From: Celeribacter neptunius
GTDB taxonomy: Bacteria; Pseudomonadota; Alphaproteobacteria; Rhodobacterales; Rhodobacteraceae
DNA length: 64,000 bases
Assembly (NCBI RefSeq): GCF_900113955.1
Contig: NZ_FORH01000002.1
Span: 1-64,000, forward strand
Direction of reading: 5' to 3'
Shown: positions 42,587 to 56,257 of the stretch, one piece after another
Layout: the number at the start of each line of letters is the position of its first letter
Position numbering within the stretch: position 1 is the first letter of the stretch
Program-made: the position numbers and the translations under genes
Notes under the pieces: model-generated
Databases searched by the model: none
What the model was told of the DNA's origin: nothing
Seen by the model: only the letters and a program-made list of their open reading frames with translations

Positions 42587-43540
42587 TCAGTTCACCGGGG
42601 TCGGCAGCGGCTTGCCCTCGAAATAGGCGGTGAGATTGTCGCATTGCGCGATCGACATGTCGCGGCGGGTCTCCACCGTCGAAGAGGCCTGATGCGGCTG
42701 CAACAGCACATTCGGCAGCGCGATGAGCCGCGCATCCACATGCGGTTCGTTGTAGAAGACATCGAGCCCGGCGCCGGCGATATCGCCCGCCTCCAGCGCC
42801 TCGATCAGCGCCTCTTCGTCGATACAGCTGCCGCGGGCGATATTGATCACCACACCGCGCTTGCCCAGCGCCTGAATGGCCGCACGGGACAGGTAGCCCT
42901 TGGTGTGATCCCCGCCGACCACGGCCACGACCATCCAGTCGACCGCTTTCGCCAGAGAGACGACATCCTCGCCATGGTAAGTCCAGCCCTCGGGCGTGTC
43001 CTTCGCCGAGCGCGAGGTGTAATGCACCTCCATGCCAAAAGCCGCGCAGCGATCCGCGATGGCCCGGCCGATCCGGCCCATACCGGCAATGCCCACCGGC
43101 GCGCCGGACATTTTACGGTTGAGCGGCAGCTCCCTGCCCGACGCCCATGTTCCCTCACGCACCCAGGCGTCGCCCTTGACGATCTCGCGCGACCAGCCGA
43201 GCATCAGCGCCAGCGCCAGATCCGCGACATCCTCATTGAGGACATCGGGGGTATTGGTCACCCTGATGCCGCGCGCGGTGGCGGCGGCGACGTCGATCTT
43301 GTCATAGCCGACGCCGAATTGCGAAATCACCTCGAGATTCGGGAAAAGATCCATTTGATCCCCGTCAAACGGCTTGTGCCCCTTGTTGGCCACCGCCCGG
43401 ATCCCGGCGCGGACATCTTCCGGCAAAGCAGACCGCTCTTCGGGCGTGCCGGCCAGCACTGCGGGCGCCACCGCCTCGATCCGGGCACGCTCCTCGGCGT
43501 CGAAATAGGGCGCAGAGATCAGGATCACGGGGTCGGTCAT
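42587..43540 (-). CDS. D-2-hydroxyacid dehydrogenase (hydroxypyruvate/glyoxylate reductase-like)
   Basis: 317 residues. NAD(P)-binding GIAGMGRIGRAIA (about residues 150-162) with the catalytic Arg in NIARGSCIDE, Glu in DVFYNEPHV and His in LQPHQASS. FGVGYDKIDV is the substrate-loop region. Reduces glyoxylate, hydroxypyruvate or related acids. The residue after the second beta strand (HYTSRS) suggests NADP preference. Single gene; substrate not fixed by context. Confidence 0.9.
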   Translation of the reverse strand: MTDPVILISAPYFDAEERARIEAVAPAVLAGTPEERSALPEDVRAGIRAVANKGHKPFDGDQMDLFPNLEVISQFGVGYDKIDVAAATARGIRVTNTPDVLNEDVADLALALMLGWSREIVKGDAWVREGTWASGRELPLNRKMSGAPVGIAGMGRIGRAIADRCAAFGMEVHYTSRSAKDTPEGWTYHGEDVVSLAKAVDWMVVAVVGGDHTKGYLSRAAIQALGKRGVVINIARGSCIDEEALIEALEAGDIAGAGLDVFYNEPHVDARLIALPNVLLQPHQASSTVETRRDMSIAQCDNLTAYFEGKPLPTPVN

Positions 43541-43966
43541 GTCAGAGCCTTTCTTGTCAATACCATAGCCGGTCTGAAGCGGCGAAAACCATGGTTCAGT
43601 CCTAGGCGATCGAGCTCGGTTTGAAAAGGCTTCAGCCGCCGGGTTTTACCGCTAACCCTCTGGTGTTTTCCGATCATCCAAGCCCCAGCCATCGTCCTGG
43701 TTCATGGCCGTTATGCACCCGCTAACCATCCCCGAAAAATGCACAGTCATTTGTCCGACATCAAATCGAGAGGGCTGAATATGTGCTCTAAGCGGGGCGG
43801 GACAGCGCGAGTATCCCTTCATTCCAGAGCCTGCTTTCGAACACAGGCGGAGCTTTACCTGCCGCAAAGGCAGCCCGGGCCAAGTCACCTTGCGCCCGAC
43901 CGGAGGAGGCTTGCTCGCAAAAGTCCAGATCTCGACGACGTTCTCTACGACGGAGGCCTGACGACC
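43541..43966. other. Leader region of the MBX-like operon
   Basis: 426 bases without a supported gene upstream of mrpE. It includes a TTG-N8-CAA element at 43751-43764. An open frame runs into mrpE from 43739, but the family start is at 43967, so this part is probably untranslated leader. Confidence 0.55.
43751..43764. promoter_or_regulatory. Crp/Fnr-family-like site upstream of the MBX-like operon
   Basis: TTGTC-CGAC-ATCAA keeps the TTG-N8-CAA core of FNR/DNR sites, with one perfect FNR half (ATCAA) and one degenerate half. It lies 203 bases before mrpE. Confidence 0.4.
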
Positions 43967-44509
43967 ATGAGTGATACGGGTGTGCCCATCCCCGCCAAAG
44001 GCACCACAGCGCCGCCCCTGGGTCGCTTTGCGACGCGGCTGTTTGCGACGCTGTTTCTGTTCTGGCTTCTGCTGAACGGCTCGCTGAGCCCGGCAACGCT
44101 TTTGAGCGGTGTCGTGGTCGCCGGCGTGATCGCCTTTTTCTTTTCCCGCAACCTGTCCTTCCTCTCAGGCTTCAATCTGACGCCCAAGGGTATCGGCGCG
44201 GGGCTCATGTTCATCGGCTACTTCCTCAAGGAGCTGGTGAAAGCCAACCTGGCGCTCGCCAAGCTGGTCGTGACACCGTCGCTGCCGCTCTCGCCCGCCA
44301 TCGTCAAGGTCCGCACCCGCCTGACCCATCCGGTCGGGCGGCTTTTGCTTGCCAATGCGATCACCCTGACGCCCGGCACGCTGACCACCGAGATCCAGGG
44401 CGAATATCTCTACATCCACTGGGTCGTCGCCAAGGACACCGAGATCGACGCCGCGACGCAGGAAATCGTTGCCGGGTTCGAGCAATATCTGGAGGTGATG
44501 TATGGCTGA
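43967..44509 (+). CDS. mrpE: Mrp-type antiporter subunit E (MbhA-like)
   Basis: 180 residues starting MSDTGVPIPA. Two or three N-terminal helices, then the soluble MrpE domain with VKVRTRLTHPVGRLLLANAITLTPGT and the YIHWVV segment. First gene of the 13-gene membrane complex operon. In archaeal MBH/MBX complexes the equivalent subunit is A. It overlaps mrpF by eight bases. An N-terminal extension reaching to 43739 is open but lacks MrpE character. Confidence 0.9.
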   Translation: MSDTGVPIPAKGTTAPPLGRFATRLFATLFLFWLLLNGSLSPATLLSGVVVAGVIAFFFSRNLSFLSGFNLTPKGIGAGLMFIGYFLKELVKANLALAKLVVTPSLPLSPAIVKVRTRLTHPVGRLLLANAITLTPGTLTTEIQGEYLYIHWVVAKDTEIDAATQEIVAGFEQYLEVMYG

Positions 44510-44765
44510 CCTGCTCCTCATCCTCGCCGCTCTGGCCACGCTCGCCGCCTTTGTCATGGCCGCATGGCGTTTCATCAAGGGACCGCGCGCCACCGACCGG
44601 GTGGTGGGGTTCGACGTGCTGACCATCGTCTCGATCACCGGCATCGTCCTGGCCGCATTGATCACCGGCCGCGAAATCTATCTCGATGTCGCACTGGTCT
44701 ATGCGCTCCTGTCATTTTTGGGCGTCATCGTCGCCGCCCGTTATCTGGAAGGAGGCGAGAAATGA
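44502..44765 (+). CDS. mrpF: Mrp-type antiporter subunit F (MbhB-like)
   Basis: 87 residues, three transmembrane helices. Family core: GPRATDRVVGFDVLT followed by ALVYALLSFLGVIVAARYLEGG. GGAGGTGA is the ribosome site inside mrpE. It overlaps mrpG by four bases. Part of the ion-translocating small-subunit module of the complex. Confidence 0.92.
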   Translation: MADLLLILAALATLAAFVMAAWRFIKGPRATDRVVGFDVLTIVSITGIVLAALITGREIYLDVALVYALLSFLGVIVAARYLEGGEK

Positions 44766-45106
44766 GCTTTTCCGGACCTCTCGACACGCTGGGCGCTCTG
44801 GTCCTTCTGACGGGTGCGCTGTTTCTGGCGCTTGGCGGGCTTGGCCTTGTGCGCATGCCCGATGTGTTCAACCGCATTCAGGCCGGCACCAAGGCGACGA
44901 CGCTGGGGACGCTTCTCGTTCTGATCGGCGCCGCTCTGATCATGCCCGGCTGGGCGATCAAGCTTTTGCTGATCATGCTGTTTCTGATGTTCACCAACCC
45001 GCTGAGTTCGCAGGTTCTGGCCCGCGCCGCGCATCGTTCCGGTGCGCCCATGGCGCCGCAGACCCAGGTCGACCGGCTGGATGAAGATGCGGAGGAGCTG
45101 GCATGA
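44762..45106 (+). CDS. mrpG: Mrp-type antiporter subunit G (MbhC-like)
   Basis: 114 residues starting MSFSGPLDTLG. Three helices; family motif GLVRMPDVFNRIQAGTKATTLGT (about residues 28-50) and FTNPLSSQVLARAAHRSG. Four-base overlaps on both sides (ATGA). Membrane subunit next to MrpF. Confidence 0.93.
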   Translation: MSFSGPLDTLGALVLLTGALFLALGGLGLVRMPDVFNRIQAGTKATTLGTLLVLIGAALIMPGWAIKLLLIMLFLMFTNPLSSQVLARAAHRSGAPMAPQTQVDRLDEDAEELA

Positions 45107-45384
45107 CTTTCTTGACCCTCATGGCTGCGGTTCTGGCATTGGCCACGCTCGGTGCCGCCCTCATCGCGCTTCTGACCCGCTCCACCGTGGTGGCCGTATT
45201 GGCGGCCGGGCTGGTGTCGCTCTTTGCCTCAGTCCTGTTCCTCATTCTGGCCGCGCCCGATGTGGCGATGACCGAGGCGGCGATCGGCTCCGGGCTGACC
45301 ACCTTCCTGTTCTTCTTCGTCCTCGGCCGTCTGCGCCGCGAAGGCGCGAAACCGCAAGGCACGAAAATGGAGGGTTCGAAATGA
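45103..45384 (+). CDS. DUF4040 subunit (MbhD-like, equivalent to part of MrpA)
   Basis: 93 residues, three helices with AAPDVAMTEAAIGSGLTTFLFFF, the motif of the DUF4040 domain that in standard Mrp antiporters is fused to the C-terminal part of MrpA. A stand-alone version is characteristic of MBH/MBX-type operons (subunit D). The Lys/Gly-rich tail is extramembranous. Overlaps of four bases on both sides. Confidence 0.88.
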   Translation: MTFLTLMAAVLALATLGAALIALLTRSTVVAVLAAGLVSLFASVLFLILAAPDVAMTEAAIGSGLTTFLFFFVLGRLRREGAKPQGTKMEGSK

Positions 45385-46088
45385 CCACCCGCACCGCCAT
45401 TCCCCTCGTGCTTCTGGCGCTCTTGGGTACAGCGTTCTTCACGCTGTTCGCCGGCTATGTGCCGGATGCCGAGCTCAATCGCACCGCCGCCTATTATGCC
45501 AATCAGACCGTGGCCGAGACCGGCGCCCAGAACGTGGTGACGGCGATCATCGTCACCTATCGCGGGCTCGACACGCTGGGCGAGGTCACCGTGCTGTTCC
45601 TCACCGCCGCCATCGTCGGGCTGGTTCTGGCGCATTCGAAAGCGCCGAAGGGCCGTTCCGGCTCCGGCTTTCTGCCCTCGGGCGAGCTTTTGACCACGGG
45701 CACACGCATGCTGGTGCCGGTGATCCTCCTGTTCGGGGCCTATGTCTTCGTCAACGGCCACCTGACCCCGGGCGGCGGTTTCCAGGGCGGCGCCATCGTT
45801 GCCTCCGGCCTGTTGCTGATGCTGCTGGCCGATCCGGCAGAACGGTTCTCGCACGGGCTGATTTCCCGCATCGAGAGCTCTGCCGGGCTCACCTATGTGA
45901 TCCTTGGCCTTCTGGGCATGATCCTCGCCGGCGGCTTTCTCGACAACCGTATCCTGCCCTTGGGCACGTTCGGCTCGATCCTCTCGGCTGGAGCGATCCC
46001 GCTCATCTACATCCTCATCGGTTTGAAAGTCGGGGCGGAATTCTCCTCGATCCTGACCTCTCTCGAAGAAACGGAGGACGCGGAATGA
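45381..46088 (+). CDS. mrpB: Mrp-type antiporter subunit B (MbhE/F-like fusion)
   Basis: 235 residues. The first 90 residues contain YRGLDTLGEVTVLFLTAAIVGLVL, the MbhE-like segment normally at the end of MrpA. Residues 100-235 are MrpB/MnhB (GTRMLVPVILLFGAYVFVNGHLTPGGGFQGGAI). So subunits E and F of archaeal complexes are one polypeptide here. Four-base overlap with the neighbouring genes. Confidence 0.9.
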   Translation: MTTRTAIPLVLLALLGTAFFTLFAGYVPDAELNRTAAYYANQTVAETGAQNVVTAIIVTYRGLDTLGEVTVLFLTAAIVGLVLAHSKAPKGRSGSGFLPSGELLTTGTRMLVPVILLFGAYVFVNGHLTPGGGFQGGAIVASGLLLMLLADPAERFSHGLISRIESSAGLTYVILGLLGMILAGGFLDNRILPLGTFGSILSAGAIPLIYILIGLKVGAEFSSILTSLEETEDAE

Positions 46089-46444
46089 TCCTCATCCAAA
46101 TCGCCATGCTCCTGGGCTTTGCGTTGATCCTTCTGGGGCTCTACGGCGCGCTGACCAATCGCGACATCATCCGCATGATCGTGAGTTTCACCATCGCCGA
46201 CACCGGTGTGAACGTGGTTCTGGTCTCGGTCGGCTATCTCACAGGCCGTGAGGCGCCGATCCTCGACACCATCCCGGTCGCAGATGCCGCCGCCCGTATC
46301 ACCGATCCGGTGCCGCAGGCGCTGGTGCTCACCGCCATCGTCATCGGGCTGGGCGTCACCGCCCTCATGCTCGCCTATGCCTATCGGTTGTTCCGCGCCC
46401 GCGGCAGCCTCGACATCTCTGACTATACGGAGCTGAAATGGTAA
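46085..46444 (+). CDS. mrpC: Mrp-type antiporter subunit C (NuoK/MbhG-like)
   Basis: 119 residues, three helices. Family features: LLGLYGALTNRDIIRMIVSFTIADTGVNVVLV and DPVPQALVLTAIVIGLGVTALMLAYAYRLFR. Homologous to NuoK of complex I. Overlaps the large antiporter gene by seven bases. Confidence 0.92.
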   Translation: MILIQIAMLLGFALILLGLYGALTNRDIIRMIVSFTIADTGVNVVLVSVGYLTGREAPILDTIPVADAAARITDPVPQALVLTAIVIGLGVTALMLAYAYRLFRARGSLDISDYTELKW

Positions 46445-49400
46445 GCCCTCTTCTCATCCTCGCCGCCGGGCTGGGTGCGGCATTCCTCCTCGGGCTTTTG
46501 CGCCAGACCTCTGAGCGCGCAGCCTTCTATGTCACCATCGCGGCTCTGGGCTTCATGGGCTTTATCGCCCTGTCCTGGACCGTCGGGCTGGCGCTTGGCG
46601 ACGCCCTGCCGGTGATGATCACCACGGCGGGAACCGCGCCGCCCTTTGCCATCAACCTCTTCATGGGGGGGATGGAAGCGGCACTGATCTCCGTCGTTAC
46701 CCTGACCGGGCTCCTGTCCGCCTTCTACATGCGCAAGGATCTCCTGCGTCTCGGGCGCCGCGTCATGGCGGTACTTCTGGTGCTGATCATGGCGCTCTCG
46801 GGGCTGATCATGACCCGCGACCTGTTCAACCTCTTCGTCTTCATCGAACTGATCGTGATCGCCTCGGCCGGTCTGATCCTTTTGTCGAGAGACACACGCG
46901 CGCTTGGCGCCGGGTTCAAATATCTCGTGGTCTCGCAGGTGATCTCGATCCTTCTGCTCGTGGGGGTGATTTTCACCTATCACGCCAATGGTTCGCTCAA
47001 TATCGACGACATCCCGGCCCGCCCGATGGTCTTCACCGGCGCTTCGCTGGCGATTTTCCTCGTGCTGATCGCGCTGGTTCTCGAATTGAAACCTTTCCCT
47101 GCCAATGGCTGGGCGCTCGACATCTATGAGAGCGCGCATCCCGGCTTCTCGGCGATCTTCTCCGCCGCCTCCGGCACCGCCGCCGCCTTTGCCGCGTTCA
47201 AGCTCTTTGACGTGGCCGGCCCCGCCTGGTTGCCGCTCGCGACCGGCATCGGCATCGTCACCTTTGTCGGCGCCAATCTTCTGGCGCTGGCGCAAAGCCA
47301 CGACCGCCGCCTGCTGGGCTATTCCTCGGTGGGCCAGATCGGCCTCGTGTTGATGGTGATCGGTCAGGCCGACATTCTGGGCGCGACGCTCCCCTATGTC
47401 GCCGGCGGTATCCTGATCTCGCATGCGGTGGCGAAATCCGGTCTGTTCTGGCTCTCCGGTCTGGTGAAAGGCCGCGAGCTTTCCGACTGGGCCGCGCTGC
47501 GCGACAATCCGGTGCTGATCGTCGCCTTCGCCACCTTCATCGCCATGCTCACCGGCCTGCCGCCCTTCCCGGCGTTTTATGCCAAATGGGCGCTGGTGCA
47601 TGCGCTGATGGCCAATGGCGCCTTTGCGCTCACCGCCGCCTTCCTGATCGCGGCGCTGATCGAAGCCGCCGTACTATTCCGCTGGTTCGGCATGGCGATC
47701 AAACGCGAATCCCGTCGCGCGGTCGTGGTCAATCTCACCTATGAGGCCGTGGTGCTCCTCGCCATGGGCACAAGCTTCGTGCTGAGCTGGATCTGGGGTG
47801 CGGCAAGCGGTCAGGAGAACCTGATCACGCTGGTGCCGCTGCTCTTCGCGCTTTTGTTCCTGCCTTTGGACATTTTCCCGGCCAAGGCCAAGAACCTGCT
47901 GGCGATCGCCGGGCTGGTGGTCTGGTTCGCGCTGTCGTTTCACGGGCTCGACCCGATCCGCCTGGTGTTCCTGATCATCATGGTGCTGGGCGGCGCGCTG
48001 CTGCTGCTGGCTTCGTTCCATGCCGAGGGCCGTCGCATGGGCTTCTACACCCCCGCGATGCTGATGTTCGCCGGCATGGCGCTCCTGATCACTTCGGAGA
48101 CGAGTTTTCAGTTCTTCGCCGCCTGGGAATTCCTCACCGTGGGCAGCTATTTCCTGATCCTGCGGGGCCATGACAGCGAACCGCATGCGCTCTCCTACAT
48201 CGTCTTCTCGCTGGGTGGCGCCTTTGCCCTACTGGCGGGGTTTGCGCTCGCTTCCGGCGGCAAGTTCACCTTCTTCGTCAGTGAACTGTCGGAGATCGCA
48301 CCGCAGGTGGCGCCCTATGTCTTTGTCCTGCTGGCGATCGGTTTTCTCACCAAGACCGCCGTCATGGGGTTGCATATCTGGCTGCCCGGGGCCCATGCCG
48401 AGGCCGAGACCGATGTCTCGCCGATGGTGTCTGGCATCCTCTTGAAGGCCGGTCTCTTCGGCCTGTTCATCCTGCTCCTCGAAATGGGTCACCAGACGCT
48501 CTACGGCATCGATCTGACCGTTGTACTCGTGTGGCTCGGGGCACTCTCCGCCTTTGTCGGCGCGGTGCTCGCCGCCTTTCAGGAAGATGCGAAACGGCTT
48601 CTGGCCTATAGCTCGATCTCGCAGATGGGCTACGCCGTCTTCGGTCTGGCGCTGATGAACCATTTGGGCTGGCTCCTCGCGCTGATGTTCGCGATCAACC
48701 ACTTCGTCTACAAGTCCATGCTGTTTCTGGCCGTGGGCGGCGTCAAGGAGCGCACCCATACCAAGCTCATGTACAAGATGGGCGGGCTGATCACGCTGAT
48801 GCCCTACACTTTCGTCTCGGTTCTGGTCGGCATCATCGCCATGTCGGGCGTGCCGCCGCTCTCGGGCTTTGGCGGGCGCTGGATCTTCTACAACGCGATC
48901 ATGTCCACCGATCTTCGCCTGCCGATGATCCTCGTGTTCATGTCCGGCCCGGTCGGGTTCCTGTATCTGTTCCGCCTGATCCACTCGATCTTTTTGGGCC
49001 AGCCGAAAGACGAGCTGCGCATGGTGAAAGAGGCGCCGTTCTGGATCGTCGCGCCGCAGATGCTCTTCGTGGCCTTCCTGATCGCCTTTGCCGCCCTTCC
49101 GGGCATGATCCTGAGACGCGTCGATGGCTATATCGGCCAGATCTTTGGCGACCAGCCACTGACATGGTCGGGCCGGATCGTCGACAGCCAGTTCGGCACA
49201 TGGAATCCGGTGGCAATCTGGGGCGTGATCGCGGTGGTGTTCATCACCATCCTGCTCCTGCTGATCTGGATGAACCACAACGCCCAGCGCGTAAAACAGT
49301 TCAACATCGTCTTCTCCGCCGAACGTCCGTTCAAACCGCAGACCACGCATTTCGCCTGGAACTTCTTTGCGCCCTACCGCAAGGCGATGGGGTTCCTGGA

Positions 49401-49572
49401 AGCGCCCATCGCCACCGGTTTCTGGACGGGCGTGAGCAATGCGCTCCACGGCACGGCGGAATTCACCCGTAAATTCTACACCGGCAATGGCCAGACCTAT
49501 GCGGTGCAGCTCCTGCTGTTCGTTGTTGCGGTCTATCTGATCGTCCTTGGCTCCATGGGAGGCGCGTCATGA
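46438..49572 (+). CDS. Tandem antiporter-like subunit (MrpD/MbhH fused to a second NuoL/M/N-type domain)
   Basis: 1044 residues, about 28 transmembrane helices. It consists of two Proton_antipo_M units. Unit 1 (about 1-485) has the key Glu137 (NLFVFIELIVIAS), Lys218 (LELKPFPANGW) and Lys333 (VAKSGLFWLSG). Unit 2 (about 490-1044) has Glu564 (AAWEFLTVGSYF), Lys639 (LTKTAVMGLHIWLPGAHAEA), then a long C-terminal helical extension. Each unit is the size of a normal MrpD or NuoM. Archaeal MBX has two separate subunits H and H' at this place; here they are one chain. It should translocate H+ or Na+. No internal start with a ribosome site is seen. Confidence 0.9.
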   Translation: MVSPLLILAAGLGAAFLLGLLRQTSERAAFYVTIAALGFMGFIALSWTVGLALGDALPVMITTAGTAPPFAINLFMGGMEAALISVVTLTGLLSAFYMRKDLLRLGRRVMAVLLVLIMALSGLIMTRDLFNLFVFIELIVIASAGLILLSRDTRALGAGFKYLVVSQVISILLLVGVIFTYHANGSLNIDDIPARPMVFTGASLAIFLVLIALVLELKPFPANGWALDIYESAHPGFSAIFSAASGTAAAFAAFKLFDVAGPAWLPLATGIGIVTFVGANLLALAQSHDRRLLGYSSVGQIGLVLMVIGQADILGATLPYVAGGILISHAVAKSGLFWLSGLVKGRELSDWAALRDNPVLIVAFATFIAMLTGLPPFPAFYAKWALVHALMANGAFALTAAFLIAALIEAAVLFRWFGMAIKRESRRAVVVNLTYEAVVLLAMGTSFVLSWIWGAASGQENLITLVPLLFALLFLPLDIFPAKAKNLLAIAGLVVWFALSFHGLDPIRLVFLIIMVLGGALLLLASFHAEGRRMGFYTPAMLMFAGMALLITSETSFQFFAAWEFLTVGSYFLILRGHDSEPHALSYIVFSLGGAFALLAGFALASGGKFTFFVSELSEIAPQVAPYVFVLLAIGFLTKTAVMGLHIWLPGAHAEAETDVSPMVSGILLKAGLFGLFILLLEMGHQTLYGIDLTVVLVWLGALSAFVGAVLAAFQEDAKRLLAYSSISQMGYAVFGLALMNHLGWLLALMFAINHFVYKSMLFLAVGGVKERTHTKLMYKMGGLITLMPYTFVSVLVGIIAMSGVPPLSGFGGRWIFYNAIMSTDLRLPMILVFMSGPVGFLYLFRLIHSIFLGQPKDELRMVKEAPFWIVAPQMLFVAFLIAFAALPGMILRRVDGYIGQIFGDQPLTWSGRIVDSQFGTWNPVAIWGVIAVVFITILLLLIWMNHNAQRVKQFNIVFSAERPFKPQTTHFAWNFFAPYRKAMGFLEAPIATGFWTGVSNALHGTAEFTRKFYTGNGQTYAVQLLLFVVAVYLIVLGSMGGAS

Positions 49573-50486
49573 GTTCTTTTCCCAACTTCGCATGGGGACA
49601 GGTGCCCCTCGCCCTGCTGACGCTGTTCATCGTCATCAACTACGGCATGATCATGACCGCGCTGGTGCGCAAGATCGGGGCACGGGTCGGCGGGCGTTAC
49701 GGCATTCCGATCTGGCAGAACTATATCGATCTGCTGAAGAATATCGCGCTCAGATCGAAGATCTCGCACGGGGTGATGTATTACCTCGCCCCGGTGTTTC
49801 GCCTCACCGGCGGCGTGGGCCTTCTGCTCTTCGTGCCGACGATCTACGGCTCGGACTGGCATCAGAATTTCTCTTATGCCGGCGATCTCATTCTGGCGCT
49901 CTATTTCGTCTTCTTCGGCACGCTGGGCATGGCCTTGGGCGCCGGCGAGAGCGGCCATCCGCATTCGGCCATCGGCGTCTCGCGCGGTCTTTCCCAGGTG
50001 ACCATGGCGGAACTGCCGCTGGCGCTTGGTGTCTATGCCATTTCGCTTCAGTACCAGACCCTCGACATCACCCAGATCGTCGCGGCACAGCAAGGCTCGA
50101 TCTTCAACTGGACGCTCTTCACCAACCCCTTGGCCACCATCGCCGCCATGTTCGCCTTTGTCGGCACGATGATGCGCTCGCCCTTCGACGTGGTGATCGC
50201 ACCGCAGGAAATCCCGATCGGCCCGCCGACCGAATATCATTCCTCCTATCTGGCGCTGATGCAGACCAACCGCGTGCTCTTCCCGGTCGCCAAGACGGTG
50301 ATCTACATGAACCTGTTCTTCGGCGGCGCAACGAACTGGGCCGAATTCGCGATCAAGGTGTTCGTGCTCTACATGCTCACCGCCGTGATCGGTGTCGTGC
50401 ACCCGCGTTTCCGGGTCGAACAGAGCATCCGCTTCTTCCTCAAATGGGGGCTGCCCGTGGGCGTCCTCGCCATCCTGACCGTGTAA
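49569..50486 (+). CDS. NuoH-like membrane subunit (MbhM-like)
   Basis: 305 residues, about eight helices. Complex I subunit 1 family: RVGGRYGIPIWQNYIDLLKNI in the N-terminal amphipathic region, AELPLALG, and MRSPFDVVIAPQEIPIGPPTEYHSSYLAL. This subunit joins the hydrophilic redox module to the ion pump and in complex I lines the quinone cavity. Four-base overlap with the antiporter gene. Confidence 0.9.
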   Translation: MSSFPNFAWGQVPLALLTLFIVINYGMIMTALVRKIGARVGGRYGIPIWQNYIDLLKNIALRSKISHGVMYYLAPVFRLTGGVGLLLFVPTIYGSDWHQNFSYAGDLILALYFVFFGTLGMALGAGESGHPHSAIGVSRGLSQVTMAELPLALGVYAISLQYQTLDITQIVAAQQGSIFNWTLFTNPLATIAAMFAFVGTMMRSPFDVVIAPQEIPIGPPTEYHSSYLALMQTNRVLFPVAKTVIYMNLFFGGATNWAEFAIKVFVLYMLTAVIGVVHPRFRVEQSIRFFLKWGLPVGVLAILTV

Positions 50487-50499
50487 CGGGGGTGACATC

Positions 50500-51192
50500 A
50501 TGAAAGACGTTGACGACAAGTTCCGCAAGGACACCGAAAAGCAGGTTCCGCTCCGTGAAGAGCTGAAACCGCGCAAGGTGACGACGCCCGACGGGCAGGA
50601 AATCGACATCGATCCGCTGCGCGATTATTTCTGCGACGCCAAGCCGAAGGTGCATCCCAAGGCCTACTCAAAGATTGTCGAGGATTTCTACAACTGGGCG
50701 CGCTCGAACTCGCTCTGGATTCTCGGCTTCGGCACCGGCTGTGGCGCAATCGAGATGCGGCCTCTGATGACGCCGCGCTTCGATGCCTATCGCTATGGCA
50801 TCCAGTGGCGCCCCACCCCGCGTCAGGCCAACCTGCTGGTGATCTCCGGCTATCTCTCGGTCAAGACGCTCAAACGCGCGATCCGCGCCTATGAGCAGAT
50901 GCCCTCACCGAAATACGTCATGGGCTTAGGTTCCTGCACCATCAATGGCGGCATGTATTGGGACAGCTACAACACGATCAAACGGCTCGACGATTACCTG
51001 CCCGTCGACATGTATGTCGCCGGCTGCATGCCGCGCCCCGAAGCGCTGCTTCATGGCTTCATGGAACTCAAGCGGGTGATCCGCGAGGGCAAGGGTGAAG
51101 GCGCCAACACCTATGCCGAGAATTTTGACCAATACAAGGTCAACCAGAAGGCCGTGATCAAGGACTGGGACATGCCGGATTACAATTGGTGA
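50500..51192 (+). CDS. NuoB-like small subunit (MbhJ-like) with incomplete Cys set
   Basis: 230 residues, soluble. NuoB/small-hydrogenase fold: GTGCGAIEMRPLMTPRFD, GLGSCTINGGMYWDSYN, AGCMPRPEALLHGFM. The cluster ligands visible are Cys81, Cys146 and Cys176; the second Cys of the usual pair is Gly82. Another Cys (45) lies in the N-terminal extension, which is about 40 residues longer than NuoB. It would hold the terminal Fe-S cluster of the complex. GGGGGTG lies before the ATG. Confidence 0.9.
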   Translation: MKDVDDKFRKDTEKQVPLREELKPRKVTTPDGQEIDIDPLRDYFCDAKPKVHPKAYSKIVEDFYNWARSNSLWILGFGTGCGAIEMRPLMTPRFDAYRYGIQWRPTPRQANLLVISGYLSVKTLKRAIRAYEQMPSPKYVMGLGSCTINGGMYWDSYNTIKRLDDYLPVDMYVAGCMPRPEALLHGFMELKRVIREGKGEGANTYAENFDQYKVNQKAVIKDWDMPDYNW

Positions 51193-51785
51193 TCGAGATG
51201 ATGAGAGAACTTCTATACCGCCTCAAAGACCGCTATCACCTCGGCACGCCGACGTTTCAGCGCGACGATCTGACCTTTGTCACCGTCAAACGCGACGAGC
51301 TGCGCGCCATTCTGACCGAACTCAGGGATGTCGAGGGGTTTACCCATCTGACCTTCCTCACCGCGGTCGACTGGATCGAAGAAGGCCTGTTCCAGCTCAC
51401 CTATATGATCAACAACCGTGAGGCCAACCAGTCGCTCGGTCTGCGCGTCATGCTCACCCGCGAGGATGAGCCGGGCGCCACCACGGGCGACACGATCCAC
51501 GATCTCTGGCCTACCGCGGCGACCTATCAGCGTGAGTTGAACGAGATGTTCGGCATCAACTTCCCCGGCTCTCCCCGCGTCGATGAGGAATTCATCCTCG
51601 AGGGCTGGACCGACCTGCCGCCCTATCGTCGCGATTTCGACACGCTCGCTTATTCGCAACAGACCTATCGCGAGCGTCCGGGCCGTGGCCGGTCTGATCC
51701 GAAGGCCCATATGCAAGAGACGCTTTACCCGGATTATCCGAAACCCCGTGAGGCCGCTCACGCCCACAAAGAGGAGGCGAAATGA
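51189..51785 (+). CDS. NuoC-like subunit (MbhK-like)
   Basis: 198 residues from GTG 51189, which overlaps the nuoB-like stop (GTGA); ATG 51198 is an alternative. It has the 30-kDa subunit domain with the signature TYQRELNEMFGINFPGSPR and an acidic/His-rich C-terminal tail. Supports the NuoD-like subunit. Four-base overlap with the next gene. Confidence 0.88.
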   Translation: MIEMMRELLYRLKDRYHLGTPTFQRDDLTFVTVKRDELRAILTELRDVEGFTHLTFLTAVDWIEEGLFQLTYMINNREANQSLGLRVMLTREDEPGATTGDTIHDLWPTAATYQRELNEMFGINFPGSPRVDEEFILEGWTDLPPYRRDFDTLAYSQQTYRERPGRGRSDPKAHMQETLYPDYPKPREAAHAHKEEAK

Positions 51786-52963
51786 TGTTCTCCTTCAAAC
51801 CCGACCGGTCGCAATACCCAGAGCCCGGCCCCGACGGCAAGCTCGAGATCGATCTCGAGACCGGCAAGTACCTCAAGCTCTGGCACGGGCCGAACCATCC
51901 CGGCATCACCGGCAATATGTCGGTGGAGCTCACCGTCTGCGGCGATGAGGTCGTGGATGGCAAGACCCATGTCGGCTATCTGCACCGTGGCTTCGAGAAG
52001 CTGATGGAGCGGCGGACCTTCATTCAGGTCTTTCCCATCGTCTGCCGGGTCTGCGTGCCGGAGCCGGATTTCAACGAATATTGCTATGCCGCCGCGGTCG
52101 AGGAACTCGCCGATATCGACGTGCCGGAAATGGCCAACTGGATCCGGACGCTCATTCTCGAAATGGGCCGGTTCAACAGCTACATGATGGCCATGGGCGG
52201 CATCTCCGGCGCCTTGGGCCTCGGCGTTGTCGGTCAGTGGATGACCTATACCCGCGATCTGATGCTCGACCGGTTCGAGGAACTCACCGGGGCGCGGATC
52301 TATCACATGTTCATCCTGCCCGGCGGCGTGCGCGCGCATCTGCCCGAAGGGTTCGAGGCGCGGATGGAAGAGGTGCTGCAAACGGCGGAGAAATACCTCG
52401 CCGATGCCGAGAAGCTGATGTTCCACAGCTCCGTTTTCAAAACCCGCACCAAGGGTGTCGGCTATATCGATCCCGCGCTCTTTGAACGCTACGGCGTGAC
52501 CGGGCCGAATGCCCGCGCCGGCGGTGTGGCCAAGGATGTGCGCAAGGACAGCCCGTATCTGGTCTATGATCAGCTCGAGTTTACCGTGCACACGGAAACG
52601 GAGTCGGACATCTATGCCCGCACGCTGGTGCGCTACAAGGACCTGCAGGAGACCATTCAGCTTATCCGTCAGATCCTCCGCAAGATGCCGAAAACCGGCG
52701 AGGTGATGAGCAACCTGCCCAATGTGCTGCATTGGAAAATCCCGCGCGGCGAGACCTATATCAAGGGCGAATCCTCGCGCGGCGAATATGGCTATTACCT
52801 GGTGACCGACGGCACTGGCTATCCGCGCCGGATCAACGTCCGCGGGCCGAGTTACACCCATGCCATGGCTTTGCTCGAACATCTGATCCCCGGCACCAAT
52901 ATTTCCGACGTCGCGGCGCTGATGGTGTCGCTGCACACCTACCCGCCCGAGATCGAGAGGTAA
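51782..52963 (+). CDS. NuoD-like large subunit (MbhL/MbxL-like, non-[NiFe])
   Basis: 393 residues. 49-kDa/hydrogenase large-subunit fold: KLWHGPNHPGITGNM, VGYLHRGFEKLMERR, then IVCRVCVPEPDFNEY with Cys88 and Cys91. In [NiFe] hydrogenases a second CxxC lies at the C-terminus; here the end reads DVAALMVSLHTYPPEIER, as in NuoD, with no Cys. Thus one half of the nickel site is kept and one half lost, the arrangement I recall for archaeal MbxL/MbsL. It is not expected to make hydrogen. Probably forms the quinone- or sulfur-facing catalytic interface. Confidence 0.9.
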   Translation: MMFSFKPDRSQYPEPGPDGKLEIDLETGKYLKLWHGPNHPGITGNMSVELTVCGDEVVDGKTHVGYLHRGFEKLMERRTFIQVFPIVCRVCVPEPDFNEYCYAAAVEELADIDVPEMANWIRTLILEMGRFNSYMMAMGGISGALGLGVVGQWMTYTRDLMLDRFEELTGARIYHMFILPGGVRAHLPEGFEARMEEVLQTAEKYLADAEKLMFHSSVFKTRTKGVGYIDPALFERYGVTGPNARAGGVAKDVRKDSPYLVYDQLEFTVHTETESDIYARTLVRYKDLQETIQLIRQILRKMPKTGEVMSNLPNVLHWKIPRGETYIKGESSRGEYGYYLVTDGTGYPRRINVRGPSYTHAMALLEHLIPGTNISDVAALMVSLHTYPPEIER

Positions 52964-52967
52964 TCCC

Positions 52968-54764
52968 ATGTCCCTGCGCGACGTACTCTCCCCCTTCACC
53001 GCCTGGAAACATGTGATCGACACCCCGGTCACCATCCAGGACCCGTTCAACCGCGAGGCCGCCGATCGTTACCGGGGCTTTCACCAGAACGACATGGACA
53101 AATGCATCGGCTGCGGCTCTTGCGAAGAGATCTGTCAGAACGACGCCATCGACATGGTGCCGGTCGAGGGCCAGAACGCCGGTCCCGGCGACTCCGGTCT
53201 CCGCCCGATGATCGATTATGGCCGCTGCTGCTGGTGCGCGCTCTGCGTCGATGTCTGCATGACCGGTTCTCTGACCATGTCCAACGAATACACCTGGGTC
53301 GACAGCGACCCCGATGCGTTCAGGTTCATCCCCGGCGTCGATGGCAAGTCCTGGGATCTTGAACCCAAGGGCTATCAGCGCGAGGACACGCGCCGTCTCA
53401 CCGGCACCACCCGCGCGCCGATGGGCGAGATGGAGCCCGAGGCACGGATCGGCAATTTCGACGAGATCGTCGACGGGTTCACCCGCGAACAGGCGGTGAT
53501 CGAGGCCGATCGTTGCGTCGAATGCGGGCTCTGTGTCGCCACCTGCCCGGCGCATATGGACATCCCCGACTATATTTCGAAAGTCCGCGATGGGGATTAT
53601 GAGGGCGGTTTGCAGATCTTGTACGAGACCAACCCGTTCTCGCAGGCCTGTGGCCGGATCTGTACCCACAAATGCGAAACCACCTGCGCCGCGATGCATG
53701 AGGGCGACGCGATTGCCATCCGCTGGCTGAAACGCGACATCACCGACAATGTACCGCGCGAGCGCTATTTCGACCTGATCCAGAAACCGGATGTGCCCGA
53801 AACAGGCCAGAAGATCGCCGTGATCGGTGCCGGTCCCGCCGGCCTCACCACCGCCTATGATCTGGCACGCAAGGGCCACAAGGTCGTGGTCTTCGAAGCC
53901 TTGGACAAGCCCGGCGGCATGATGCGCTACGGCATCCCGGAATACCGCCTGCCCTATGATGTGTTGGACCACGAAATATCGGTGATCGAAAGCATGGGAG
54001 TCGAGATCCGTTGCAACATGCGCGTGGGGCATGAGATCTCCATGCAGCAGCTCGAGAAAGCCTATGACGCCGTGGTGCTCTCCATCGGCTTGCATCAGGG
54101 CCGCTCCACCCGCGTGCCCGGCTCCGAGAAAGCCGAGGCCGCCATCGATCTGTTGCGCCGGATCACCGCCGGCGAAGAGGTTCCGGTGCCCGAACAGGTG
54201 GCGGTGATCGGCGGCGGCAACGTGGCGATGGACATCGCGCGCTCGATGGCGCGTCTGCAGAAGGTGAAATACGACAAGGTCGGCGTCACCATCACGGCGC
54301 TCGAAGAGCTCGACCGCTTCCTCGCCGATGCCGAAGAGATCAAGGAAGCCCAGGAAGAGGGCTGCGTGATCTACCCGGCGCGCGGGCCGCAGGAAATCAC
54401 CCTGGAGGGCGAAAACGTCACCGGTCTGCGCACCTGGAAGGTCAAGGCGATCTTTGACGACGAGGGCCGCTTTGCCCCAAAATATGACGAGGCGGATGAG
54501 ATGGTTCACCCGGCGCAGATGGTCGTCGAGGCCATCGGCCAGATGTCCGATATCTCGCTTCTGGGCGCGGAACTGACCGAGAAGCTCGAATGGAACCGTG
54601 GCCGGATCATGATCGACGCCGATGGTCAGACCTCGGAAGCCTGGCTCTGGGCGGCGGGCGATGTGACCTCCGGTCCGGACGTCATCCATGCGGTTGCCGA
54701 TGGTCACCGCGTGGCGCGTTCGGTGGGCAAAATGCTCGCGACAAAACGGGAGAAACTGCAATGA
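52968..54764 (+). CDS. NuoI-type ferredoxin domain fused to a GltD/NfnB-like FAD oxidoreductase
   Basis: 598 residues. N-terminal NuoI/MbhN-like segment with two [4Fe-4S] motifs: Cys46/49/52/56 and Cys87/90/93/97. Then a GltD-type Fer4_20 region (CVECGLCVATCP from Cys183 and CGRICTHKCETTC), FAD site VIGAGPAGLTTAYDLA (about residue 285) and NAD(P) site VIGGGNVAMDIARSMA (about residue 413). NuoI and MbhN normally lack the flavoprotein part. The fusion would link the membrane complex directly to NAD(P)H, ferredoxin or both. It starts four bases after the nuoD-like stop. Confidence 0.92.
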   Translation: MSLRDVLSPFTAWKHVIDTPVTIQDPFNREAADRYRGFHQNDMDKCIGCGSCEEICQNDAIDMVPVEGQNAGPGDSGLRPMIDYGRCCWCALCVDVCMTGSLTMSNEYTWVDSDPDAFRFIPGVDGKSWDLEPKGYQREDTRRLTGTTRAPMGEMEPEARIGNFDEIVDGFTREQAVIEADRCVECGLCVATCPAHMDIPDYISKVRDGDYEGGLQILYETNPFSQACGRICTHKCETTCAAMHEGDAIAIRWLKRDITDNVPRERYFDLIQKPDVPETGQKIAVIGAGPAGLTTAYDLARKGHKVVVFEALDKPGGMMRYGIPEYRLPYDVLDHEISVIESMGVEIRCNMRVGHEISMQQLEKAYDAVVLSIGLHQGRSTRVPGSEKAEAAIDLLRRITAGEEVPVPEQVAVIGGGNVAMDIARSMARLQKVKYDKVGVTITALEELDRFLADAEEIKEAQEEGCVIYPARGPQEITLEGENVTGLRTWKVKAIFDDEGRFAPKYDEADEMVHPAQMVVEAIGQMSDISLLGAELTEKLEWNRGRIMIDADGQTSEAWLWAAGDVTSGPDVIHAVADGHRVARSVGKMLATKREKLQ

Positions 54765-55255
54765 GCGAAGCGAACAAGGAAAAACTGTCCGGTCTCACCA
54801 GCGTGAAAGAGATCATGGACACGGCGACATCGTTTGAGGTGGTGGCGCGGGATTTCTATCAGGCCCTCGCCCCGAAAGTGTCGAAGAACATCCGCTGGCT
54901 GGTCGATGAACTCGCCGAAGAGGAACAGGGCCATGTCGATCTCTTCACAAAGCTCGCAAATGATCCGAAAGTCTCCGAAGTGATGGCCGAAAAGATCCAG
55001 CGTCCGGTGGCCGACGGCAAATTCTCCGACTGTGTGCAGGTACCGGATCTGGGCGAGAACCCGGACGATCAGACTGTGCTGCAATATGCGCTTCTGCGCG
55101 AAACCGCGGCGATGGAGCAATATACCGAACTGGCCGAAACCGCCCCCGAGGGACCGTTGAAAGAGGCCTTTGTCTTCCTCGCCAATGAGGAGGCCGAGCA
55201 CAAGGAAGAGCTCGAGAAGATCTATTACGAGGTGGTGCATTCCGGTGGCGTGTAA
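54761..55255 (+). CDS. Ferritin-like/rubrerythrin-type protein
   Basis: 164 residues starting MSEANKEKLSG. Four-helix ferritin-like domain with EVVARDFYQAL, ELAEEEQGHVDLF, LRETAAMEQYTELAE and LANEEAEHKEELEKIYYE supplying paired Glu/His ligands for a di-iron site. No rubredoxin domain. It overlaps the flavoprotein gene by four bases, so it belongs to the complex operon. Such proteins often remove peroxide or protect oxygen-sensitive Fe-S enzymes; the electron donor could be the fused flavoprotein. Confidence 0.88.
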   Translation: MSEANKEKLSGLTSVKEIMDTATSFEVVARDFYQALAPKVSKNIRWLVDELAEEEQGHVDLFTKLANDPKVSEVMAEKIQRPVADGKFSDCVQVPDLGENPDDQTVLQYALLRETAAMEQYTELAETAPEGPLKEAFVFLANEEAEHKEELEKIYYEVVHSGGV

Positions 55256-55460: not shown

Positions 55461-55631
55461 ATGGGCCAGAAAAACAAGAAAGACAGCTCGCTGATCATTC
55501 GGCTGCCCAAGGCGGACCGGGATGATTTTGTTGCGCTCTGCGAAGAGATGGATACCTCTGCCTCGCGCGAGTTGCGCGACCATATCCGCAAATTCCTCAA
55601 GAAGAATGCCAAGAAAGGGTCGTCATCGTGA
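55461..55631 (+). CDS. Small ribbon-helix-helix-like protein
   Basis: 56 residues. A Lys-rich start (MGQKNKKDSS) is followed by LIIRLPKADRDDFVALCEEM and SASRELRDHIRKFLKK, matching the beta-strand plus two helices of ribbon-helix-helix (CopG/ParG/Arc) DNA-binding proteins. Its stop overlaps the GTG start of the ParA-like gene (GTGA), so the two are coupled. The pair resembles a plasmid-type partition module (ATPase plus small DNA-binding partner), and the palindrome at 55412-55430 is a likely binding site. A ribosome site is not strong (AGGGCGAG, six bases upstream). Confidence 0.78.
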   Translation: MGQKNKKDSSLIIRLPKADRDDFVALCEEMDTSASRELRDHIRKFLKKNAKKGSSS

Positions 55632-56257
55632 AAACGCTTCTCGTCGCCAATTCCAAGGGTGGCTCCGGCAAGACGATGACAGCAATCACCCTGGCCGCCG
55701 CATTGAAGGCCGCCGGGTACAAGGTCATGCTGGCCGATGCCGATCCGCAGCAATCTGCGCGCCGCTGGGGCAAGCGCCGCTCAGCCTATGCGCCGCATAT
55801 CCCGACCGCAAACTGGACCAAGACCCCGCGCCCGTCTGTGCCGAGAAAGACCGACTGGCTGGTGATCGACAGCGGCGCTGGCATCGAGGCCGAGGAGGTC
55901 AAGCCCTTTGTCAAAGAGGCGGATTTCCTGATCACCCCGGTGATGGCCTCGATGTTCGACGAGCTGGCGGTCAAGGGCTTCTTCAAGTCACTGCAAGAGC
56001 TCAAACGCATCCGCAAGGACAAGATCGAGATCATGACCATCGGCTCGCGTGTCGATCTCCGGCGCAAGGACGCCAAGCTTCTGGGCGAGTTTCTCGAGGC
56101 CAATGGCCAGGAGCTGGTGACGCTGATCTCGGAACGCGCCGCCTATATCGATCTGGCCCGCGAGGGCCTGTCGATCTTCGATCAAAAACAGGCCAAATAC
56201 AAAGCCATGAAAGAGCAATGGCAGCCGGTGCTGAAACGGCTGGGTGTCAAGCTCTGA
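55628..56257 (+). CDS. ParA/MinD-like ATPase
   Basis: 209 residues from a GTG start. Deviant Walker A KGGSGKTMTA (about residues 10-19), ADADPQQSARRW as Walker A', and DWLVIDSGAG as Walker B. It lacks an N-terminal HTH, so it is of the small ParA/ParF class. These ATPases bind DNA in the ATP state and position plasmids, chromosomes or protein complexes. Here it lies in the chromosome 370 bases after the MBX-like operon, with only a small RHH partner and no ParB. Confidence 0.9.
   Translation: MKTLLVANSKGGSGKTMTAITLAAALKAAGYKVMLADADPQQSARRWGKRRSAYAPHIPTANWTKTPRPSVPRKTDWLVIDSGAGIEAEEVKPFVKEADFLITPVMASMFDELAVKGFFKSLQELKRIRKDKIEIMTIGSRVDLRRKDAKLLGEFLEANGQELVTLISERAAYIDLAREGLSIFDQKQAKYKAMKEQWQPVLKRLGVKL

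Follow-up and report, generated by a model that had tools for sequence, protein, structure and literature searches.

The window analysed here is a stretch of 64,000 nucleotides (positions 1 to 64,000, forward strand, of contig NZ_FORH01000002.1) from Celeribacter neptunius, whose genome comprises 4,395,428 bases in 18 contigs. Between positions 43967 and 55255 it carries 13 plus-strand frames, identified with Pfam and NCBIfam models, in the order MrpE, MrpF, MrpG, MbhD (DUF4040), MrpB, MrpC, MrpD-MrpD, NuoH, NuoB, NuoC, NuoD, NuoI-flavoprotein and rubrerythrin-like. Judged from its sequence, the encoded complex is a bacterial MBX, kin of the archaeal sulfane-sulfur reductase MBS (6u8y), and our somewhat favoured reading is that it would act as an ion-coupled oxidoreductase between nicotinamide adenine dinucleotide (NAD(H)) and polysulfide or persulfide.

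Gene content and identity of the operon

An initial annotation, made from the letters alone, had described a 13-gene operon with ATGA-type overlaps nearly throughout and the module order of archaeal MBH/MBX complexes. The 13 frames and the conserved order in relatives bear out the operon, and overlaps occur at nine of its 12 junctions (4 bases at seven of them, 8 and 7 bases at one each), the remaining three showing gaps of 13, 8 and 4 bases when the NuoC start is taken as 51201. All on the plus strand, the first four genes are MrpE-like (43967..44509; PF01899, 129.8 bits; an in-frame ATG lies upstream at 43739), MrpF-like (44502..44765; PF04066, 64.5 bits), MrpG-like (44762..45106; PF03334, 87.5 bits) and MbhD/DUF4040-like (45103..45384; PF13244, 59.8 bits), by order MbsA-, MbsB-, MbsC- and MbsD-like, respectively. 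They are followed by an MbhE-MrpB fusion of 235 residues (45381..46088; PF20501 and PF04039; top PDB match 6u8y_E at 154.8 bits, next 63.2) and by an MrpC-like gene, MbsG-like by order (46085..46444; PF00420, 83.4 bits; NCBIfam MrpC models). The tandem MrpD of the initial annotation is right as to two antiporter domains (PF00361 in two stretches), but these form one open frame of 1044 residues, an MbsH-like half and then an MbsH′-like half (46438..49572), and not two genes.

The second part of the operon encodes a NuoH/MbsM-like membrane anchor (49569..50486; PF00146, 153.7 bits), a NuoB/MbsJ-like small subunit with a predicted three-cysteine proximal [4Fe-4S] cluster at C81, C146 and C176 (50500..51192), a NuoC/MbsK-like subunit (51201..51785; PF00329, 81.3 bits; alternative starts at 51186, 51189 and 51198) and a NuoD/MbsL-like large subunit lacking both the nickel ligand set and the quinone-headgroup residues (51782..52963). 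Next comes a NuoI with two [4Fe-4S] motifs, joined to a GltD/NfnB-type domain for flavin adenine dinucleotide (FAD) and NAD(P)H with two more iron-sulfur (FeS) sites (52968..54764; NF010590 and PDB matches), and last a rubrerythrin-like protein of 164 residues, likely accessory (54761..55255; PF02915, 54.3 bits; a single weak PDB match of 28.3 bits). Neither NuoE, NuoF and NuoG nor NuoA is found in the operon by Pfam and NCBIfam, as first annotated; the absence of NuoJ holds by name only, since the excerpted text of PMC7684303 describes features of Nqo10 and Nqo11 that are common to MbhD, MbhG and MbhE.

Structure comparisons, made as phmmer searches of the PDB, covered half of the 12 complex-forming frames; the remaining six were assigned by Pfam and order. 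The NuoD-like subunit matches MBS (6u8y_L) at 297.8 bits, against at most 212.8 for complex I and 125.4 for MBH; the NuoB-like subunit matches 6u8y_J at 210.9 bits, the best complex I-type chain reaching 141.2, and the NuoH-like subunit 6u8y_M at 121.6 bits, followed by MBH at 50.7. The fused MrpD protein finds 6u8y_X at 188.8 bits (residues 440-1035) and 6u8y_H at 148.3 (best stretch 6-309), the next being MBH at 127.7, and the best complex I-type chain for the NuoI part is MbsN of 6u8y, at 81.8 bits. An Ehr/MBX-like grouping, as initially proposed, can be narrowed to MBX/MBS, since in these subunit comparisons 6u8y scores above complex I and MBH. Phylogeny, suggested at the outset as a check, agrees: MBX rows and MbsL separate from two complex I rows with a support of 100, in a quick NuoD-like tree with long branches for MbsL and for complex I (a second tree omitted L095 and the two complex I rows). 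As for membership of complex I, the operon frames include no NuoE, NuoF or NuoG gene and the quinone residues are replaced. The fusion of NuoI to a GltD-type FAD/NAD(P) domain marks the operon, by sequence, as a bacterial MBX rather than an archaeal-type MBS.

The relatives drawn on below come from a scan of genome contigs that gave at least 581 pattern matches, 565 of which encode a NuoD-like relative by tblastn; the loci read are the best 80 of these 565 confirmed stretches, all with at least 56% identity, and the other 485 may include complex I. All 12 homologues from MrpE to NuoI-flavoprotein stand in the same order in 42 of the 44 loci with room for the operon, which supports both the synteny and the MBX/MBS module order first put forward. 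The two exceptions are L056, with no match for the eight genes from MrpE to NuoH, and L097, in which the MbhD and MrpG matches are swapped.

Redox sites, nucleotide motif and pump residues

The proximal site can be compared residue by residue in a NuoB-like alignment of 71 rows (the window, MbsJ and 69 of the 80 loci) and a NuoD-like alignment of 81 rows (the window, MbsL and 79 of the 80 loci), cut frames being omitted from both. MbsJ C28, C93 and C123, whose ligand roles follow excerpts of PMC7684303, have cysteine counterparts in 70, 69 and 69 of the 71 rows, and by these residues the proximal cluster would retain its three cysteine ligands; the place of MbsJ C25, which according to the same excerpts takes no part in catalysis, is glycine in 68 of 71. 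In the large subunit, MBS keeps two places of the four nickel-ligating cysteines of group 4 [NiFe] hydrogenase and the window has one of the two: C91, in the CRVC of residues 88-91, matches MbsL C85 (cysteine in 62 of 81 rows), and Y387 stands at MbsL C385 (cysteine in 29 rows, tyrosine in 52), in line with the initial observation that the C-terminal CxxC is missing. Seen through its residues, the proximal site is of the MBS kind, and neither of the complex I nor of the hydrogenase kind.

At the places of the complex I quinone-headgroup residues H38 and Y87, set by the pairwise alignment of the PDB search, all 81 NuoD-like rows carry threonine and valine, respectively. With both residues missing, a quinone, first offered together with a sulfur compound as possible acceptor, appears the less likely partner, and the same loss speaks against a rival in which the complex is an ion-pumping NADH:quinone oxidoreductase, with the flavoprotein in place of NuoEFG and quinone entering the NuoB/NuoD/NuoH chamber. 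This rival draws on the homology of the entire module to complex I, on the NADH-quinone span, which would power pumping, and on a chamber opening that, in the excerpted PMC7684303, is wide enough in MBS and complex I for polysulfide or quinone. The NuoD family, however, occurs at two places in the genome, so that a complex I-type copy on contig C5 (387.9 bits) is already present beside the operon copy (214.1 bits), and we regard the rival as unlikely.

At the opposite end of the predicted electron route, the flavoprotein part, whose PDB matches (up to 275 bits) are GltD/NfnB-type domains from transhydrogenases and other proteins, was compared across 72 rows (the window and 71 of the 80 loci, cut frames omitted). 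The initial annotation rightly saw a flavoprotein fused on, to NuoI, but overstated its novelty: the fusion has its own NCBIfam model (NF010590, PRK13984), whose cut-off of 946 bits is exceeded by the Thermotoga maritima control though not by the window protein (859.6 bits), and it is a single frame in 70 of the 71 loci with an uncut frame, the exception being L090, with 435 residues. The NuoI cysteines are kept in 71 of 72 rows, one row having a gap. Residues 444-446 are YRR in 28 of the 72 rows and residue 446 is glutamate in 44, the window reading ALE. In excerpts of PMC7596348, NADP(H) goes with YRR, in DsrL-2 as in NfnB; DsrL-1, which is without the motif, prefers or requires NAD(H). Since ALE stands in place of YRR, the window complex is likely to be linked to NAD(H) rather than NADP(H), which refines the NAD(P)H flavoprotein of the first description. 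The resulting division of 72 fusions by motif, NAD(H)-type against NADP(H)-type, within bacterial MBX appears to be new; the motif label needs two changes on the NuoD-like trees, and a tabulation of the large-subunit cysteine pattern against the nucleotide motif gave several patterns in both types and no rule.

The kinship of the FAD domain with NfnB-type subunits also underlies a second rival, a ferredoxin:NAD+ oxidoreductase with an Rnf-like job, or a bifurcating NADH/ferredoxin enzyme using the NuoI and GltD-type domains, and Mbx is indeed described as a ferredoxin:NADP+ oxidoreductase in excerpts of PMC6349859. Yet none of the 72 rows has lost any of the eight cysteines at the two FeS sites of the flavoprotein, against a glutamate ligand at the proximal cluster of NfnB (PMC7596348, in excerpt), no separate ferredoxin gene lies among the 13 frames, and the conserved three-cysteine proximal site would be left without use; only a small probability attaches to this proposal.

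The antiporter halves were aligned with an MBS stretch in 57 rows (the window and 56 of the 80 loci, cut frames omitted), and they form one chain in all 56 uncut relatives. Every one of the 57 rows conserves MbsH E138, E219 and K393 in the N-terminal half, and every one lacks K250. In the C-terminal half, MbsH′ E128 and K217 are kept in all 57 rows and K248 in 55; lysine (41 rows) or arginine (16, the window included) stands at K399, and the H336 place is histidine in one row and phenylalanine, tyrosine or leucine in 51, with a histidine four places past it kept in all 57. K250 and H336 are named as charged-axis residues in the excerpted PMC7684303, and both are, by alignment, changed across the bacterial family, so that coupling may differ. 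Ion-coupled electron transfer, as first suggested, is upheld as a hypothesis.

Distribution, chromosomal site and neighbouring genes

By record title, the 80 loci span Pseudomonadota, Spirochaetota, Bacteroidota, Cloacimonadota, Neomarinimicrobiota and others. Celeribacter supplies the nearest named records (L018 and L019; 94% in NuoD), and on the quick NuoD-like trees the window falls within a 19-row clade with a Shimodaira-Hasegawa-like approximate likelihood ratio test support of 100, whose rows of named phylum are all Pseudomonadota (Thiothrix, Sedimenticola, Thiosymbion, Magnetococcales, betaproteobacteria and other Roseobacteraceae). Among nearer kin the distribution is patchy: 8 of 101 relatives carry the operon, the window's genome counted, with 2 of 385 at class level (1e-70) and the fusion model in 6 of 398 at phylum level (1e-150). 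A divergent MBX occurs in another alphaproteobacterial family (L011/L112, G404), its NuoD 48% identical, with DACPP near the end, cysteine kept, one TAA inside the match, and NuoI and flavoprotein pieces in two frames.

Within the genus, 7 of 20 genomes have the operon, and in all seven it lies between a 2-hydroxyacid dehydrogenase gene and a ParA-like gene (in the window, 42587-43540 on the minus strand and 55628-56257 on the plus strand). Seven other genomes (L098-L104) have the site empty, the flank genes standing 403-611 bases apart, and in the remaining six a ParA homologue was not found at 1e-60. By tblastn, pieces of the operon survive at three of these empty sites: L098 has part of the rubrerythrin-like gene, and L101 and L102 have parts of NuoD; L099 is similar to L098 by eye. 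The fixed site and these remnants speak for loss of the operon within the genus, and, as different pieces remain, probably for at least two separate losses, as might be expected of a dispensable function. Recent transfer into the genus is not favoured on the same grounds, and an old gain before the genus diverged is possible; a search of PLSDB for a plasmid home gave no match at 1e-70 (tblastn). Two genus mates have some 8-9 kb of extra DNA between the rubrerythrin-like gene and ParA (L105:2332-11232 and L106:11637-19581), encoding a Reductase_C-type flavoprotein and an NMT1-type transport protein, along with rhodanese in L105 or cyanate lyase in L106.

Neighbouring genes are varied. In a metagenome-assembled genome of Spirochaetales, a large protein beside the MBX operon (L043:3-1904) combines pyridine-nucleotide-disulfide reductase, rhodanese, TusA and DsrE2 domains. 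A Pfam scan of 30 hand-picked neighbour proteins gave sulfur-transfer domains in two of them, the L105 rhodanese and the L043 protein, and no recurrent neighbour that would name a substrate. Two gammaproteobacterial records (L032:14157-18857 and L034:19183-21036) have V/A-type ATPase subunit genes close to the operon. Closely 3′ of the NuoI-flavoprotein, 12 loci, all Bacteroidota or Chlorobiota by title, have a gene belonging to a single sequence cluster; its L053 member (L053:11806-12789) is dihydroorotate-dehydrogenase-like and, together with the NuoI-flavoprotein, reminiscent of PreA/PreT-type pairs. Genes of another such cluster are found near the operon in 15 loci, of which those listed are Bacteroidota or Chlorobiota by title; the L070 member (L070:1246-2085, minus strand) is a Crp/FNR-type regulator. 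In the window, a perfect TTGAYNNNNRTCAA, FNR-like in sequence, lies at 43355-43368, inside the upstream 2-hydroxyacid dehydrogenase gene; FNR-type boxes across the whole window are not above chance (7 against a mean of 4.65), and a consensus scan of 43500-43967 gave no sigma-70-like site.

Proposed reaction and relation to known systems

What the sequence itself supplies is the gene set and its order, the fusions, the lost nickel and quinone residues, the three-cysteine site, the absence of YRR and the altered pump residues. From these we infer, with a little more confidence than doubt, an NADH-linked, ion-coupled polysulfide or persulfide oxidoreductase, of which the substrate, nucleotide, direction and ion, as well as the role of the rubrerythrin-like protein, are the conjectural parts. 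NAD(H), as the motif suggests, would deliver electrons to the NuoI-fused FAD domain, or take them up there; between this domain and the proximal [4Fe-4S] cluster of the NuoB-like subunit they would travel over the FeS sites of flavoprotein and NuoI. With three cysteine ligands as in MBS, the open iron of that cluster is the predicted site of S-S cleavage in polysulfide, trisulfide or persulfide, or of its formation in reverse. The NuoH-like subunit and the fused MbsH-H′ chain would couple this to H+ movement and the Mrp-like subunits to Na+/H+ exchange, and the rubrerythrin-like protein may shield an oxygen-labile site. The weakest rival, to which we give very little credence, is a detoxifying or redox-balancing device that passes NADH electrons to the rubrerythrin-like protein against peroxide or oxygen, the pump being secondary: a rubrerythrin-like match follows the NuoI-flavoprotein in 17 of 17 loci L018-L034 (in L027 with just 26% identity) and another ferritin-like gene follows the operon in a 7-locus cluster, but a match above 35 bits is found in just 22 of the 80 loci and the operon is kept regardless.

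Several points weigh against the polysulfide or persulfide oxidoreductase. The MbsJ C25 counterpart is replaced, though that cysteine is reported to take no part in catalysis (PMC7684303), and those of the charged-axis residues K250 and H336 are changed. A search of the flanks of the 80 loci (545,912 bases) with the L043 domains located TusA, DsrE2 and rhodanese at just one locus, L043 itself, L060 matching the flavoprotein part alone. SoxB is above cut-off in 7 of 7 genus carriers (G018 with two frames) and in 9 of 13 non-carriers, a phyletic link that is not significant (Fisher p 0.25), and no activity measurement on a flavoprotein-fused MBX turned up in the literature searched. Moreover, the step from NADH to sulfane sulfur is small in potential and a poor fit with forward pumping; the complex may accordingly run close to equilibrium or backwards.

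A bolder version, which we hold to be improbable as it stands, is that oxygen-exposed bacteria use NAD(H)-type MBX backwards, with the ion gradient lifting electrons from sulfide or low-molecular persulfides to NAD+; these donors would then be oxidised to sulfane sulfur at the three-cysteine cluster. If true, it would be a distinct respiratory branch, leading straight from reduced sulfur to NADH without a quinone, and would parallel the NAD(H)- and NADP(H)-type DsrL of sulfur oxidisers and reducers. MBX is viewed as an intermediate linking hydrogen-evolving complexes to complex I. The Celeribacter group consists of marine, aerobic heterotrophs; a copy in this group, alongside a complex I-type NuoD elsewhere in the genome, would offer a new place to study MBX. 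The motif split and the lost pump residues make reaction and stoichiometry directly testable, and the empty sites within the genus are natural controls.

Among known systems, biochemical dissection within the literature found concerns archaeal MBS only, and in the open-licence literature no work was recognised on alphaproteobacterial MBX or on an NAD(H)/NADP(H) split of MBX. The initial statement that such a system is not characterised in this group of bacteria fits that literature, but a putative Mrp-Mbx has already been reported, among complexes of unknown function or direction, in the sulfur-oxidising Riftia symbiont (PMC11636981, in excerpt); the likeness is by description only, the symbiont being gammaproteobacterial and the window alphaproteobacterial. 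With DsrL and NfnB, as excerpted from PMC7596348, the window complex has a GltD/NfnB-type domain in common, as well as a nucleotide split that follows YRR: NADP(H) with the motif, NAD(H) without it. Those flavoproteins, in contrast, are neither fused to NuoI nor tied to an ion pump. Their partners are sulfite reductase or NfnA.

The closest parallels are the MBX and MBS complexes themselves. Excerpts of PMC9431562 present the MBX of T. maritima as a 13-subunit homologue of MBS, with mbxA up 4.36-fold with sulfur, and those of PMC2246101 mention transfer of a twelve-gene mbx operon to Thermotoga; the T. maritima complex is likewise a bacterial MBX and, by the NF010590 model, shares the NuoI-flavoprotein fusion. 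With MBS of Pyrococcus furiosus (6u8y; PMC7684303, in excerpt) the window complex has in common the module order, two antiporter modules, the three-cysteine proximal site, the lack of a nickel site and of quinone residues, and the best PDB match for the core subunits compared. It differs in the flavoprotein fused to NuoI, in MbsH and MbsH′ forming one chain, in the added rubrerythrin-like gene, and in the loss of MbsH K250, MbsH′ H336, MbsJ C25 and MbsL C385. The family is thus already known, and the window holds a further bacterial MBX, with a nucleotide split and altered pump residues.

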